This document shows, piece by piece, positions 13,785 to 31,576 of a DNA stretch of 34,065 nucleotides. The number at the start of each line of letters is the position of its first letter. Within the stretch, counting starts at the first letter, position 1. The stretch covers positions 1-34,065 of the forward strand of contig NETF01000202.1 of assembly GCA_002172675.1 (NCBI GenBank), written 5' to 3'. The DNA is from an unicellular cyanobacterium SU3. GTDB lineage: Bacteria; Cyanobacteriota; Cyanobacteriia; Cyanobacteriales; Microcystaceae. Under the pieces are notes generated by a model. That model was given only the letters and a program-made list of their open reading frames with translations. It was not told where the DNA came from and made no database searches. A program made the position numbers and the translations under genes.

Positions 13785-13944
13785 CTTTGATTGTCTCGCC
13801 TTTGCATAAGTTAGTTAATGAGTCAATCACCCAAGATGGTAACACAGTTTGCCAGAATGTAAAGAAATAGTAGGATTAGGGGTCAAAAAGCAAGTCGCCT
13901 TCCTCTTCTTCCATTCCGAACCGTACATGGGTAGAGTCGAGGGA
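13785..13944. other. Flank of the IS1182 element, possible group II intron scrap
   Basis: No gene. Read on the minus strand, 13919-13931 gives CCATGTACGGTTC, which resembles the 3' strand of a group II intron domain V, but the matching 5' strand and GAAA loop are missing. The resemblance is short and I treat it as weak. Confidence 0.3.
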
Positions 13945-13992
13945 AGATACTGTTGGCGAAAGTAATCTAAACGTACTTCAAAATGTAATATA
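13945..13992 (+). repeat. Left arm of the long inverted repeat around the IS
   Basis: These 48 bp, starting GATACTGTTGGCGAAAGTAA, match the reverse complement of 16269-16316 at 45 of 48 positions. The match continues more weakly inward: the 24 bp ending at 14033 match at about 16 of 24 after an indel. Confidence 0.85.
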
Positions 13993-14029
13993 AGAAGAAT
14001 TTTTAGCAGAATGATGGGGATAGGTTAGT

Positions 14030-14079
14030 CAAGTAATACATGGTCAGGAGATGTTAAACTTCTTCCATGTATTACTTGG
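14030..14079. repeat. Left paired dyads, 21-nt spacing
   Basis: Two inverted copies of a 15-mer that is itself nearly palindromic (CCA-A/T-GTA-N-TAC-A/T-TGG, 6 of 7 pairs). They flank a 21-nt spacer and lie just upstream of the RHH-like gene. They can be read as a 50-nt hairpin or as two protein-binding sites. Confidence 0.75.
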
Positions 14080-14086
14080 AAAAAAC

Positions 14087-14461
14087 ATGAAACGTAAACG
14101 AGATATTCAAGGGAAGTTTGCTCTAAAAAATGATGATTACCGTCAAGTCCGCTCTTTAAGACTTACCGATGAAACTTGGCGAGCTTTAGGAATTGCTTCG
14201 GAGTGTCTTGGATGGACGAGGGCTGACTTACTCGAAAAATTAGTTAAATCTAATCAAGGAAGTTTTCCTTATTATCCAAATTGTGAAGAAGTTCCTAGTG
14301 ATACTGACCCCATAGTTTCTGAAAAACCTATCAATCAAGACAATTTAGAAATTCTAGCCAAAATAGTTTTAAAAGAATTAAAATATGGAAAACAATCTTC
14401 TTATTATAAAGTAGCAAAAAAAGCTTTGAAACGATTAATTGAACTTTCTTCTACCTTGTAA
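14087..14461 (+). CDS. Ribbon-helix-helix-like small protein, IS passenger
   Basis: A basic protein of about 125 residues from ATG 14087 (MKRKRDIQGKFA). A longer start at 14051 would read through the dyad and has a poorly spaced ribosome site. Residues about 18-55 fit an RHH/CopG fold: a strand (VRSLRLT), a helix (DETWRALGIASECLG) and a second helix (WTRADLLEKLVKS). The C-terminal half is helical, Lys-rich and unrecognised. It lies convergent with the transposase inside the IS boundaries and is bracketed by near-palindromic 15-mers. Such a protein could bind the dyads and control the element or its own gene, but that is inference. It could also be a host gene captured by the IS. Confidence 0.65.
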   Translation: MKRKRDIQGKFALKNDDYRQVRSLRLTDETWRALGIASECLGWTRADLLEKLVKSNQGSFPYYPNCEEVPSDTDPIVSEKPINQDNLEILAKIVLKELKYGKQSSYYKVAKKALKRLIELSSTL

Positions 14462-14468
14462 TACATGG
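14456..14468. repeat. Partial fifth copy of the dyad, between the two IS genes
   Basis: TTGTAATACATGG matches the last 11 bases of the 15-mer. The TAA stop of the RHH-like gene (14459-14461) is inside it. The transposase gene ends 28 bp further on. Confidence 0.6.
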
Positions 14469-14496
14469 AAAATTATTCGACAATGGAGAGCAAAAG

Positions 14497-16152
14497 TTAA
14501 GCTGTTTTGGACTTAAGAGAACAAAAACGAGAATAACGAGTAGATGCTAAAGGAATACCATTTAACCAGTTATCAAGACGATATAAATTTAAGGCTGCTG
14601 CTGTAAAAATATGTTGTAAATGAGTTTTAGCTAAACCAACATATCGAGATTGACGCAAACCCGATTTTCTAATCCCTTGTGATAAAGTTCCTTCTATTCC
14701 TGCTCTTTTTCGATAAGTATTTTGAAACTCACGAGTATTTTGTGCTTCTCTACGATTTTTTAAAGCCAGATACTCATTTTTGTCTCGAATAGTTAATCCT
14801 CTCGGTTCAATTTTAGCACGGGTACATCGAGAACGAGAACGACAATTATTACAAGAAAATCTTGAAAATGTAATCTGAATAATCGGTTGTCCTCCCACAT
14901 CTTTCTTTTGTTTCCACGTCGTACTTTGCTGTCCTTTCGGACAAGTTGCTACTTTTTTCTCCCAATCAATTTTGAAATTTTTAGCGGCGAATTTTGGGTG
15001 ATTTCGAGTTTGCCAAGAAGGGTCACTTCTGACTGGTCCAATTAATTCTATACCATAGTCTCTTTGAGATGAAATTAAATTTTCAGCTGGAGTATAACCC
15101 AGATCAACTAAATGCTTATCGGGCAGCAAAGATTTCTTTTCTAAAGCTTCATGAATAGGTGAGATAACTACTTCATCCGTTACCGTAGACAAAGTGGTAG
15201 TAACATGAGTAATAAAGTGAGGAGAATCTTCGTCACAAATCTCTGTTAAATGAACTTTATAGCCAACCCAATTAACGCTACGTTTAGACGAATAGTGAGC
15301 CTCCAAATCATAGGGAGAATGGATGGCTATGGTAGAGGGAGACATCTCTTTTGGAGGTCTTAACTGAACCCTGTCTATTTCTGGGGCATAGAATTGTTGA
15401 ATCCAGACTTGTCTTAAAGTTTCGACGGCTGCAATATGACGTAACCAGTCAGGACTATCATGATGATAAATTTTATTCAGTAATTTGAAACCATCTTTTC
15501 CAATTTTCTCCCCTAGTTGGTTTCGTTCTGAATCGAGTTTCGGCAGACGGTAATTTTCAACCCTTCTTCCATAAAAATCATACCAATCTTTGATAATATT
15601 TCTTCTTAACCAATCAGGGGCAGCTACTGATAAACTATTAAGGGCTGCCCTCATCGTCTCCCCCAACGTTTCTAAACGGTTTAAGGGTCGAATGGCTGCG
15701 AGGATATGAGTTGAATCAGTTCTTTGTTGCTTTGGGGTTTTTAATATTCCTTTTTCTTTGAACTTTTCAAGGATTTTATTAAGTAATAGTTCTTCAGATC
15801 CTCCTTTAATTAAACGTTTACGAAATTCACTTAATACAGAGTAATCAAACCCACTGTCTTCTAAGGGTAAAGAAAGTACATATTTCCAATCAATTCGCCC
15901 TCGTACTGCTTCTGCTACTTGGCGGTCTGAGAGGTTTTCCATATATTGCATTATACAGATTAAAGCTAATCGCCAAGGTGATTGGGCTGGTTGTCCTTTG
16001 ACAGAGAATAAATCAGCGAAATCTTCATCAACATAGAGAGTTTCCAAAGTATCTCGTAGTTGTAAATAAATATTTCCTTTGGGGAAAGCTGCACGGGCTA
16101 CTCGTGCTGTATCTTCAGGAATTGGCGGAATTGGTTTGGGATGTAAGGACAT
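14497..16152 (-). CDS. IS1182-family DDE transposase
   Basis: A transposase of about 551 residues from MSLHPKPIPPIPEDTARVA. An extended frame to 16233 runs through the terminal dyads and is unlikely to be the start; MLIKIEEENK at 16182 is an alternative. N-terminal signatures are FADLFSVKGQPAQSPWRLAL and QYMENLSDRQVAEAVRGRID. The catalytic set is Asp in QRTDSTHILAAIR, Asp in HLVDLGYTPAEN and Glu in RAGIEGTLSQGIRKSGLRQ. A zinc-ribbon-like CNNCRSRSRC segment precedes the last. No frameshift or stop interrupts it, unlike the other transposase genes in the window. Confidence 0.9.
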   Translation of the reverse strand: MSLHPKPIPPIPEDTARVARAAFPKGNIYLQLRDTLETLYVDEDFADLFSVKGQPAQSPWRLALICIMQYMENLSDRQVAEAVRGRIDWKYVLSLPLEDSGFDYSVLSEFRKRLIKGGSEELLLNKILEKFKEKGILKTPKQQRTDSTHILAAIRPLNRLETLGETMRAALNSLSVAAPDWLRRNIIKDWYDFYGRRVENYRLPKLDSERNQLGEKIGKDGFKLLNKIYHHDSPDWLRHIAAVETLRQVWIQQFYAPEIDRVQLRPPKEMSPSTIAIHSPYDLEAHYSSKRSVNWVGYKVHLTEICDEDSPHFITHVTTTLSTVTDEVVISPIHEALEKKSLLPDKHLVDLGYTPAENLISSQRDYGIELIGPVRSDPSWQTRNHPKFAAKNFKIDWEKKVATCPKGQQSTTWKQKKDVGGQPIIQITFSRFSCNNCRSRSRCTRAKIEPRGLTIRDKNEYLALKNRREAQNTREFQNTYRKRAGIEGTLSQGIRKSGLRQSRYVGLAKTHLQHIFTAAALNLYRLDNWLNGIPLASTRYSRFCSLKSKTA

Positions 16153-16193
16153 TTTATTTTCTTCTTCTATTTTTATCAGCATATTAGATTTTT

Positions 16194-16244
16194 CCAAGTA
16201 ATACATGGAAAAAATAACTTCCCTTTTCCCCATGTATTACTTGG
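16194..16244. repeat. Right paired dyads, 21-nt spacing
   Basis: CCAAGTAATACATGG and its inverse again surround exactly 21 nt, mirroring the left end. The spacer sequences at the two ends are not clearly alike, so the spacing is conserved while the sequence is not. The site lies upstream of the transposase start. Confidence 0.8.
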
Positions 16245-16268
16245 TTGACCGCTTTTCATCAATGCCTT

Positions 16269-16316
16269 TTATATTACATTTTGAAACACGCTTAGATTAC
16301 TTTCGCCAACAGTATC
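16269..16316 (-). repeat. Right arm of the long inverted repeat around the IS
   Basis: Inverted copy of 13945-13992 with three mismatches. The arms lie 37 bp (left) and 24 bp (right) outside the outermost 15-mers of the IS. Confidence 0.85.
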
Positions 16317-16533
16317 AGGGAAGCTATCATGCTTCGCTCCTCTTTGTGAAATCCGAGCCTACTCGACAGTGCCAGATAAAAAGTCATTTGTCTCTTAGAT
16401 GGTGGGACTCTAACCCATATCCAATTTTTCAGGGGGAGGGTTTAGTCAGCGTTATCTTATTTGTCTCTTTTGGCAGAGTCGAAAAAAGATAATATTTTGT
16501 TATCTAAATAGTAAAGCTAACTAAATATTTGTA
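16317..16533. other. Intergenic region right of the IS
   Basis: A 95-codon frame crosses 16205-16492, but it starts inside the terminal dyads, runs through the inverted arm and has no family resemblance, so I do not call it a gene. Nothing else is evident before the DUF3611 gene. Confidence 0.5.
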
Positions 16534-28374: not shown

Positions 28375-29820
28375 ATGAATTTTTTTGAGAAATTAACCCA
28401 ACGGATCACTAATTATCAAAGTTTCTTGATCCTTGGTCTTGATCCTAACCCAGAAATGATGCCTCAAGGCCAGAATCCCCATCAAGAGCAACAAAGTTTA
28501 ATTATTGCCTTAGAAATGTGGTTAAAATGGGTGATTGAACAAACATCGGGTGTAGTTTGTGCTTATAAACCAACGTTAGGATTTTATGAAGCATTAGGCA
28601 GTGAAGGATTAGAGTTATTGTTAAAAGTTATTGATGCTATTCCTGATGATATTCCTATCATTTTAGACGCAAAACATGGAGATATTAATACCAGTACCAT
28701 TTTTGCTAAAACCATTTTTGAACAGTGGCAAGTGGATGCAGTGACAGTCAGTCCTTATGCTGGACACGATCACGTTGCACCTTTTTTAGTTTATCCTGAT
28801 CAAGGGGTTTTTGTCCTTTGTCATACATCAAATCCTTCTGCAATTGTCTTACAAGAATATCCCACAGATGAAGCTCCTTTTTATTTACAAGTTATCAAAG
28901 AAGCAAGGACTTGGGCAACCCCAGAACAGTTATTTTTAGAAGTAGGGACGACGAATTTAGAAGTTATCAAGAAGATCCGTTCTCTTGCCCCTGAACGATT
29001 ATTGTTAATGCGTAGTATTTGGAGTAAGGGTAATGATCTTCATGAGATATTAAAAGTTGCTTTAAATCCGACAGGAGATGGTGTCTTAATTCCTGTTCCC
29101 CAAGACTGTTTGAAATCTAATAATTTACAAGAAGACGTTAAAAATCTCAACCAAGAAATTAATGAGTATCGACAAAGTATTGCTCAAACTTCGCAAAACT
29201 GTGATCTTTGGAGTCCTAATGTTTGTTTATTGAATTCTCATCCCCATCAAGATTTAATTTTACAGTTGTACGATATTGGTTGTTTATTATTTGGGGAATA
29301 TGTACAAGCGTCTGGGGCAACTTTTTCTTATTATATTGATCTCAGAAAAATCATTTCTAAACCTCAATTATTCCATCAAGTATTGAGCGCTTATGCTAAT
29401 ATTTTAAAGACCTTAAAGTTTGACAGAATTGCAGGAATTCCTTACGGCTCTTTACCCACAGCTACAGGATTATCTTTAATGTTACATCATCCGATGATTT
29501 ATCCGAGAAAAGAAGTAAAAGCACACGGAACCCGTCGTTTAATCGAAGGAAATTTTAAAGCAGGGGAAAAAGTGGTGATTGTTGATGATATTTTAATTAC
29601 AGGAAAAAGTGTTAAAGAAGGAGCCGAAAAATTAACTTCTTCGGGGTTAGTTGTCAAAGATATTGTGGTCTTTATCGATCATGAACAAGGGGTTAAAGAT
29701 AACCTGAAAATAGAAGGATACAAGGCTTATTCTGTGTTAACTATTTCTGAAATCACAGAAACGTTATACGAAGCAGGAAGACTGAATGAACAACAATATA
29801 ATAGCTTTTTTAAACATTAA
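28375..29820 (+). CDS. PyrF-PyrE fusion: OMP decarboxylase / orotate phosphoribosyltransferase
   Basis: A 481-residue bifunctional enzyme for the last two steps of UMP synthesis. Residues about 1-280 are an OMP decarboxylase of the longer subfamily, with FLILGLDPNPEMMP near the N-terminus and the catalytic LDAKHGDINTS (Lys100, Asp103). Residues about 285-481 are a complete orotate phosphoribosyltransferase with IAGIPYGSLPTATG, PMIYPRKEVKAHGT and the PRPP motif VVIVDDILITGKS (400-412). The order is the reverse of animal UMP synthase, a known inverted fusion found in cyanobacteria and kinetoplastids. It lies 73 bp before crtO on the same strand, the gap holding a short low-complexity repeat. 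Confidence 0.93.
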   Translation: MNFFEKLTQRITNYQSFLILGLDPNPEMMPQGQNPHQEQQSLIIALEMWLKWVIEQTSGVVCAYKPTLGFYEALGSEGLELLLKVIDAIPDDIPIILDAKHGDINTSTIFAKTIFEQWQVDAVTVSPYAGHDHVAPFLVYPDQGVFVLCHTSNPSAIVLQEYPTDEAPFYLQVIKEARTWATPEQLFLEVGTTNLEVIKKIRSLAPERLLLMRSIWSKGNDLHEILKVALNPTGDGVLIPVPQDCLKSNNLQEDVKNLNQEINEYRQSIAQTSQNCDLWSPNVCLLNSHPHQDLILQLYDIGCLLFGEYVQASGATFSYYIDLRKIISKPQLFHQVLSAYANILKTLKFDRIAGIPYGSLPTATGLSLMLHHPMIYPRKEVKAHGTRRLIEGNFKAGEKVVIVDDILITGKSVKEGAEKLTSSGLVVKDIVVFIDHEQGVKDNLKIEGYKAYSVLTISEITETLYEAGRLNEQQYNSFFKH

Positions 29821-29853
29821 GGCAAAAGGCAAGAGTCAAGAGGCAAGAGGGAA
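29820..29853 (+). repeat. Short low-complexity GGCAAGA repeat
   Basis: The 73-bp gap between pyrF-pyrE and crtO contains degenerate repeats of GGCAAGAG (29822-29852). Similar purine-rich heptamer repeats occur widely between cyanobacterial genes. Confidence 0.55.
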
Positions 29854-29893
29854 AAAATTGTTAAGATTAAAAACTAAATAAACAGTTAAACTC

Positions 29894-31576
29894 ATGGAAA
29901 CTTTTGATGTCATTATAATTGGTGCGGGTCATAACGGCTTAGTGTGTGCAGCTTATCTTCTCAAAGCAGGATATAAAGTATTATTACTTGAAAAGCGAGC
30001 CGTACCCGGAGGCGCAGCCACTACCGAAGAAGCGATGCCAGAACAAGCCCCAGGGTTTAAATTTAATCTTTGTGCGATCGACCACGAATTTATCCATCTA
30101 AGCCCTGTTATCGAAGAATTAGAGTTAAATCGGTTCGGTTTAGAATACCTCTATTGTGATCCCGTGGTTTTTTGTCCTCATCCTGACGGAAAATACTTTT
30201 TAGGCCATCGTTCTCTTGACCAAACTTGCGCTAATATTGCTCAATATAATCCTCAAGAAGCGCAACAGTATCGAGAATTTACCGAATATTGGCAACAGAT
30301 TGTTAATGCTCTGATTCCTATGTTTAACGCACCACCCAAGTCAATTATTGATATTGCCGGTGGTTATAACATTAATGCCCTTAAAGATGTGCTGAACGTG
30401 GTAGGAAGCCCCAATAAAGCCTTAGACTTTGTTCGTACCATGCTCACAAGTGCTGAGGATATTCTCGATGAATGGTTCACCGAACCCTGGTTAAAAGCCC
30501 CCCTAGCCCGTCTTTCTGCTGAATTAGGGCTTGCTCCGTCTCAGAAAAGTCTGGCTATTGGTGCGATGATGATGAGCTTACGGCATAACCCTGGGATGGC
30601 GCGTCCGAGAGGCGGTACAGGGGCTTTAGTTGATGCTCTGCTCAAATGTGTTAAGCATTATAATGGGGTGGTTTTGACAGAGCAAACCGTAGAGAAAGTT
30701 CTAGTGGATAATGGTAAAGCCGTTGGTGTGAGAATTGCCAATGGGAAAGAATATCGGGCAAAACATGGGGTAATTTCTAATATTGATGCAAAACGCTTGT
30801 TTTTAAATTTGGTCGATTCGGCTGACATTGACAGTGCTGATCCCAAACTTCGTCACCGTCTCGATAAACGTATCATTAATAATAACGAAAGCCTCTTAAA
30901 AATTGACTGTGCTTTATCCGAACCCCTAAAATTTGAACATCATAACCATCAAGATGATTATTTAATCGGATCTATTTTAATTGCTGATTCTGTTGAACAA
31001 GTAGAAACCGCTCACCATGAAGCAGCAAGGGGACGTATTCCGGATCACGATCCTTCAATGTATGTAGTCATGCCCACTCAGTTAGATCCATCAATGGCAC
31101 CTGATGGAAAACATACGTTATGGATCGAATTTTTTGCCCCTTATCAAATTGCTGGAGCCGAAAATACCGGGTTAAATGGGACAGGATGGACTGATACCCT
31201 TAAAAATCAAGTGGCTGACCGTGTATTAGAAAAATTAGCCGATTATTCTCCTAATTTAAAACATTCAGTGATCGCCCGTCGGGTAGAAAGTCCCGCAGAG
31301 TTAGGGGAAAGATTGGGAGCTTATCGGGGTAACTATTATCATGTAGATATGTCCCTAGAACAAATGGTATTTTTACGCCCGTTACCAGAAATTGCTAATT
31401 ATCAAACCCCCATTAAAGGCTTATTTCTCACTGGTGCCGGAACCCATCCAGGGGGATCAATTTCGGGAATGCCTGGCCGTAACTGCGCCCGTGTATTTTT
31501 AAAGTCACAGAAAGGTATATCGAAAGTCTTGGAAGCCTTGGGTCAGTTTGTTGCGGCGATCGTACCGAATTTTTAA
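29894..31576 (+). CDS. crtO: Beta-carotene ketolase, CrtO type
   Basis: CrtO introduces a 4-keto group into beta-carotene to make echinenone, the chromophore precursor for orange carotenoid protein. It is a phytoene-desaturase-like flavoprotein, unrelated to CrtW. The 560-residue protein starts with the FAD-binding fold FDVIIIGAGHNGLVCAAYLL, then EKRAVPGGAATTEE and CAIDHEFIHLSPV. The C-terminal FLTGAGTHPGGSISGMPGRN completes the cofactor fold. It closely resembles the characterised Synechocystis enzyme along its whole length, with 18 extra residues or so. A saccharopine-dehydrogenase-like gene follows 39 bp later in the same direction. Confidence 0.93.
   Translation: METFDVIIIGAGHNGLVCAAYLLKAGYKVLLLEKRAVPGGAATTEEAMPEQAPGFKFNLCAIDHEFIHLSPVIEELELNRFGLEYLYCDPVVFCPHPDGKYFLGHRSLDQTCANIAQYNPQEAQQYREFTEYWQQIVNALIPMFNAPPKSIIDIAGGYNINALKDVLNVVGSPNKALDFVRTMLTSAEDILDEWFTEPWLKAPLARLSAELGLAPSQKSLAIGAMMMSLRHNPGMARPRGGTGALVDALLKCVKHYNGVVLTEQTVEKVLVDNGKAVGVRIANGKEYRAKHGVISNIDAKRLFLNLVDSADIDSADPKLRHRLDKRIINNNESLLKIDCALSEPLKFEHHNHQDDYLIGSILIADSVEQVETAHHEAARGRIPDHDPSMYVVMPTQLDPSMAPDGKHTLWIEFFAPYQIAGAENTGLNGTGWTDTLKNQVADRVLEKLADYSPNLKHSVIARRVESPAELGERLGAYRGNYYHVDMSLEQMVFLRPLPEIANYQTPIKGLFLTGAGTHPGGSISGMPGRNCARVFLKSQKGISKVLEALGQFVAAIVPNF

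Follow-up and report, generated by a model that had tools for sequence, protein, structure and literature searches.

A predicted ribbon-helix-helix passenger and its candidate operator dyads appear to travel together among cyanobacterial transposons

Introduction

Insertion sequences (IS) usually carry a transposase alone. Here, we describe an IS1182-family element from a unicellular cyanobacterium (SU3) that also carries a small passenger gene and several copies of a 15-bp dyad, and we set it beside the closest described systems. V-K CAST elements carry small Arc-like ribbon-helix-helix (RHH) regulators, Arc_1 and Arc_2, which have been proposed to repress transposon genes (PMC9938897). Like our passenger, for which an RHH fold is predicted, these are small regulators on cyanobacterial transposons. 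They are 53–72 aa long and lie upstream of cas12k, whereas the passenger has 124 aa, occurs in IS1182 and IS1634 elements and beside TnsAB/TnsC genes, and is accompanied by one common dyad motif; the two are set apart here by description, not by sequence. The same source describes CvkR, a MerR-type V-K CAST repressor whose palindromic site is found in the promoters of cas12k and tnsB. CvkR is comparable as a transposon-borne repressor with a palindromic site, but it has a MerR fold and the assays of that paper point away from autoregulation (PMC9938897), whereas our passenger is RHH-like and has its sites chiefly before its own gene.

A third parallel is CopG of pMV158-type plasmids, an RHH protein that represses a key replicon gene and its own operon; its dimers bind cooperatively, and copG and repB share one operon (PMC5703833). 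The likeness lies in an RHH repressor controlling a mobile replicon. However, the copG-repB operon is found on a plasmid, whereas the passenger is found in transposons and, in our element, is convergent with the transposase gene (tnp); one relative shares a Planktothrix plasmid with a rep gene. As for the host element, according to PMC5678879 palindromes are the targets of some IS1182 members, and IS1272 takes the place of inverted repeats without creating target-site duplications (TSDs); a TSD is present at our element. Among the matches listed in literature searches on IS passengers and RHH regulators, there was no description of such a module. One of six dyad strings occurs in 22 papers, and the 20 of these that were listed all look unrelated by their titles and the start of their abstracts.

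Results

Anatomy of the IS1182 element

The window, by which we mean the whole 34,065-nt stretch that was analyzed, contains one complete IS1182-family element of 2371 bp (13946–16316). It is bounded by a long, imperfect inverted repeat (IR) of 56 bp with 89% identity between the left arm (13946–14001, plus strand) and the right arm (16261–16316, minus strand), and it is flanked on both sides by the 6-bp TSD AGGGAA (13940–13945 and 16317–16322, both plus strand). Target duplication upon insertion is a feature of IS1182; 6-bp flanking repeats were also found at L037, L115, L147, and L167, and among the 21 elements tested, 12 yielded none and four yielded repeats of 4, 5, or 7 bp. The tip of the left arm, GATACTGTTGGCGAAAGTAATCT, is common to other copies: it is seen again with new flanks elsewhere in the same genome and, with changes, in related IS1182 elements.

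The transposase gene (14497–16152, minus strand) encodes a protein that scored 325.6 bits against the family model NF033551, above the cut-off of 270, and is therefore assigned to IS1182. The passenger gene (14087–14461, plus strand) is convergent with it and encodes 124 aa from ATG 14087, one residue fewer than the 125 aa originally given. Apart from these two genes, the only open reading frame (ORF) of ≥80 aa, the size range covered in looking for the adjacent toxin gene that a type II toxin-antitoxin pair would have, is one of 95 aa (16205–16492) that overlaps the right end. A promoter and terminator scan was uninformative. Elsewhere in the window, positions 28375–31576 hold ordinary cyanobacterial genes, including PyrF/PyrE and CrtO ketolase.

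Five plus-strand sites in the element match the dyad CCRWGTAWTACWYGG with at most one mismatch, compared with none in each of 2000 dinucleotide shuffles of its sequence. Two precede the passenger, a distal copy at 14029–14043 (one mismatch) and a proximal copy at 14065–14079 that ends 7 nt ahead of the ATG; two more, at 16194–16208 and 16230–16244, lie 41 and 77 nt ahead of the likely tnp start. These four paired copies are those of the original prediction, and both spacers are indeed 21 nt long and different in sequence. The copy reported between the two genes is also real (14454–14468, one mismatch), but it overlaps the passenger stop codon. The longest-ORF start of tnp, at 16233, falls inside a dyad, and comparison with homologues points to ATG 16152 as the likely start. 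The dyads had also been taken for the ends of the IS. Because the true IR and the TSD lie outside them, the four paired dyads are instead internal, 72–119 bp inward of the tips.

A related IS end terminates nine contigs of the same genome (L288–L296), which are not necessarily nine copies. By eye, ATCTCT adjoins the tip in seven of these nine and lies in a dispersed palindromic repeat, which suggests a site preference.

Dyads follow the passenger

The link between passenger and dyads is strong across many elements. Among 60 non-redundant passengers (77 before the removal of near-copies), 51 have a dyad with ≤1 mismatch within 200 nt upstream, and in 40 of the 51 the nearest one ends 7–12 nt ahead of the start. 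The nine exceptions are L147, which has a 2-mismatch site, and eight diverged homologues. Three of these (L064 and L068, which are near relatives, and L065) have paired inverted dyads of different sequence, and L055 has 2-mismatch sites; inspection of L053, L061, L062, and L066 showed no comparable dyad pair. The 21-nt spacing seen in the window is not fixed, as 41 adjacent upstream pairs span 30–51 nt start to start.

At the genome loci, the 15.7 kb immediately preceding passengers contained 164 dyads and the 198 kb lying >3.5 kb away contained 10, both counts including multi-copy elements. Passenger-free IS1182, IS1634, and TnsAB loci (65) contained one dyad in 333 kb, and it lay within a longer hairpin. 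Sixteen of these places, refetched with wider limits and several of them cut by contig ends, contained no passenger, and ≤2-mismatch dyads occurred at two of the 16. The 16 passenger-free IS1182 loci (L097–L112) share the transposase family with our element and differ from it in lacking the passenger and being shorter (L097, for example, is 1873 bp). Ends of the GATACTGTTGGCGAA type, present in the window element, were found at 13 of these 16 relatives (≤7 mismatches in 23) and at both ends in seven; none of the 16 has a dyad with ≤1 mismatch, and the single 2-mismatch match is in L102.

Across 196 genomes, the passenger was found in 34, the exact dyad in 36, and both in 23 (Fisher p = 5e-13); a reversed control pattern matched in nine. 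The exact dyad was absent from 11 of the 34 passenger genomes, and at least three of the 23 genomes with both (G065, G092, and G095) have it somewhere other than beside the passenger. Thirteen genomes had the dyad and no passenger match. One locus was inspected in each of six of them: those in G126 and G021 are IS remnants, and the other four showed no IS end or passenger nearby and may be chance occurrences. At another locus, L304, a stretch at ~1300–1560 has IS1182-type end sequences and two dyads with no passenger or transposase match, and looks like a miniature element (MITE) derived from such an IS.

Dyads also occur within the passenger gene. Counting 60 passengers of ≥300 nt, not de-duplicated, 44 contain in-gene dyads, with 76 of 79 sites in frame 0, and in 10 of the 60 a dyad lies at the stop codon, as in the window. 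Most in-gene sites encode P[SC][IN]T[RW] or a one-step variant, which is the translation of CCR WGT AWT ACW YGG. Protein variation at these sites thus largely mirrors what the DNA motif permits, suggesting selection on the DNA. Over 312 sites, the GTA.TAC core is 98–100% fixed, a figure that choosing sites at ≤1 mismatch favors.

The pairing of dyads raises the question of RNA. Dyad 1 could pair with dyad 2 in an incoming transcript and hide the start region, protecting the element from read-through expression and leaving the protein secondary. Consistent with this, 31 of the 41 adjacent upstream pairs (all those ≤60 nt apart, a test that superseded 24 hand-picked pairs) are more alike inverted than direct, and the nearest dyad mostly stands 7–12 nt ahead of the passenger start. 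Strong RNA hairpins from paired dyads were predicted in four of six stretches tried, with z scores of −5.7 and −5.1 for the two window leaders, −8.9 for L128, and −7.0 for L306. However, the dyad-on-dyad fold is not unusually strong in L142 (z = −1.6), and L145, with one dyad in its leader, has no such hairpin (z = −1.9). Single dyads are common, the hairpin before tnp would end 41 nt ahead of the start, and neither the fixed core nor the near absence of dyads where the protein is missing fits an RNA-based role. We therefore regard fold-back as quite unlikely to be the main function. Read-through protection may be an added role of dyad pairs, but it leaves the single dyads, the fixed core, and the tie to the protein unexplained.

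The passenger has a predicted RHH-like core

The suggestion that the passenger is RHH-like was supported at the level of a predicted fold. Against family models, the 124-aa protein had no match above cut-off, and no Pfam RHH match reached its cut-off. Aligning 14 relatives brings out two parts, a conserved RSxRxTDxTW core and a separate C-terminal region. Proteins of the RHH superfamily have a strand-helix-helix core and bind DNA as dimers through the strands. Modeled alone, the 45-residue core (pLDDT 86.6) forms an extended stretch followed by two helices; the RHH strand is unformed in this single-chain model. The 18 best Foldseek matches of the core model in the PDB (probability 0.35–0.96, E ≥ 0.46) are proteins that we take to be of the RHH class (PutA, Arc, CopG, MatP, and antitoxins), with no E-value reaching significance; the match at rank 19 is not obviously RHH. 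With the full model, Foldseek found nothing significant, and RHH proteins were among the top rows.

Sequence profiles gave a similar picture. The core gave 19 Pfam member matches, 18 of them to RHH_1/3/4, MatP_C, or NikA-like models (best E 0.001), and among core relatives RHH_4 was matched in 8/29 and RHH_1 in 5/29 (best E 0.001). Whole proteins weakly matched a PHROGs phage Arc-like repressor family in 10 of 44 cases (best E 0.0012), the best Pfam match of one member is HTH_Tnp_2, a transposon HTH model (E = 5e-4), and the relative on the Planktothrix plasmid carries the annotation "ribbon-helix-helix protein." A sequence search of solved structures returned no match named RHH. Taken from these models and profiles, an RHH fold is very likely.

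The L128 passenger had no match among phage records. A viral-contig scan turned up two loci: at L311, on a viral-database contig, a partial passenger is accompanied by five exact dyads, and L312 has no dyads.

The module occurs in several mobile contexts

The device had been proposed as specific to IS1182, and this did not hold: passenger homologues exist without IS1182, mostly still with dyads. Passenger and dyads occur with IS1182 in three gene orders (convergent, tandem, and divergent) and, in Nostoc carneum, with IS1634. Both borders are common to 11 of the 13 IS1634 loci compared, and six of those 11 have, by eye, a 5–6-bp flanking repeat. The module is also found beside TnsAB/TnsC (Tn7-like) genes, where it is known by gene neighborhood, not element borders; in Nostoc carneum NIES-2107 it occurs both there and in IS1634 copies. 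Other neighbors are a serine recombinase, at two places, and Rep, KilA-N, or Rha genes. A 4.5-kb Planktothrix plasmid (L306) carries the module and a rep gene, with no transposase listed; relatives lie near rep genes only in L048, L055, L056, and this plasmid. Some loci, such as L113, have no recognized partner within 3.6 kb. Among TnsAB and IS1634 relatives, the module is a minority feature: in those drawn from the 196 genomes, 0/49 loci for which DNA was fetched had the passenger. Passenger homologues outside IS1182, mostly with dyads, and the passenger-free IS1182 relatives, most of which keep IS1182-type terminal repeats, together give a mixed outcome for the refuting condition set by the original prediction: passenger and dyads are separable from IS1182 and tied more closely to each other.

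This spread bears on whether the passenger is neutral or decaying cargo whose dyads are own-gene repeats with no regulatory effect. Many carrier copies are broken, as decay would predict, but operator-like sites are kept over wide divergence (altered in form in some distant homologues) and next to transposition genes of several kinds. We find this explanation scarcely credible.

In the passenger tree, convergent IS1182 carriers form one clade (10 rows, support 96/90), as do those of IS1634 (four rows, 100/97). By contrast, the eight convergent carriers in the IS1182 transposase tree are split among three places, and a single clade is rejected (p-AU = 9e-71); L041, a convergent carrier, is absent from the passenger tree, and the three transposase places stay without it. 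The passenger-free label requires at least five changes on the transposase tree. Because the two trees conflict, the module has probably moved between IS1182 lineages.

Several further loci deserve mention. We considered Tn3 as another host family and rejected it, as L123 is an early-ending passenger joined to a Tn3 transposase, for which a Tn3 insertion is likelier. Seven equal-score passenger matches in one genome (L056–L058 and L310) belong to an element that contains Rep_1 and KilA-N genes. Its pieces are in permuted order among the compared copies, and it may be a small plasmid that has integrated. At L047/L188 and L049, the passenger has on one side a group II intron reverse transcriptase gene reduced to an N-terminal fragment, with a similar cut point in both cases, and on the other side a convergent recombinase gene; this is possibly a separate element inserted in the reverse transcriptase gene.

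Sites before the transposase

A dyad lies within 200 nt before tnp in 16 of the 28 passenger-carrying IS1182 elements examined, compared with 0 of 15 passenger-free ones. The 12 carriers without such a site comprise 9/15 tandem, 2/5 divergent, and 1/8 convergent elements, so transposase repression is not universal. Repression of tnp by the passenger is likely in the window element, not in general.

Dyads could instead act as subterminal sites, with the protein binding both transposon ends and controlling synapsis or transposase access rather than transcription. In the IS1634 element L128, dyads lie ~90 and 125 bp from each tip, with the cluster on the right past the transposase stop, and in the divergent IS1182 elements L145 (whose tip is uncertain), L147, and L154, a pair lies ~135–217 bp from an end without a gene start. 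However, dyads are missing near the left end of the tandem elements L165–L168 and L170, the module-carrying plasmid has no transposase gene listed, and sites before the passenger are more constant than end sites. We consider an end-binding function unlikely to be the main one, although dyads at ends without a gene start may have a role there.

Discussion

Our computations show how the element is built, that passenger and dyads co-occur when set against controls, which fold is predicted, that some diverged homologues have operators of altered sequence, and that the trees conflict; from these we infer DNA binding, repression, and an effect on transposition by the passenger. The reading that we favor, and hold to be probable, is that the dyads are bound by an RHH regulator that represses its own gene and also, in some of the elements including that in the window, the transposase gene. 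The 15-bp dyads would be the operators of this transposon-borne regulator, with one protein dimer per dyad. The pair just before the passenger start would bring about autorepression, and the pair before tnp would let the same protein lower transposase expression, here and in other elements with such sites, so that transposition would drop as the regulator accumulates. Regulator and operators would travel as one module, repeatedly acquired by IS1182 lineages. Autoregulation is the safest part of this reading because the site before the passenger is the most constant feature. As a whole, then, the original prediction is partly supported.

More tentatively, one regulator-operator code could be common to unrelated transposon families and plasmids in one cell, such that an RHH protein made by one element could act in trans to repress or exclude others, forming a cross-family copy-number network; we regard this as possible but doubtful.

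What appears to move among unrelated transposon families is a cassette made up of a regulator and its likely binding sites. That it is found next to transposition genes of unrelated kinds, and also on a small plasmid, suggests a shared, mobile control circuit. This opens a testable question, namely how transposons in one cell limit their copy number, across families or not, and both the predicted operator and the small protein can now be tested directly.
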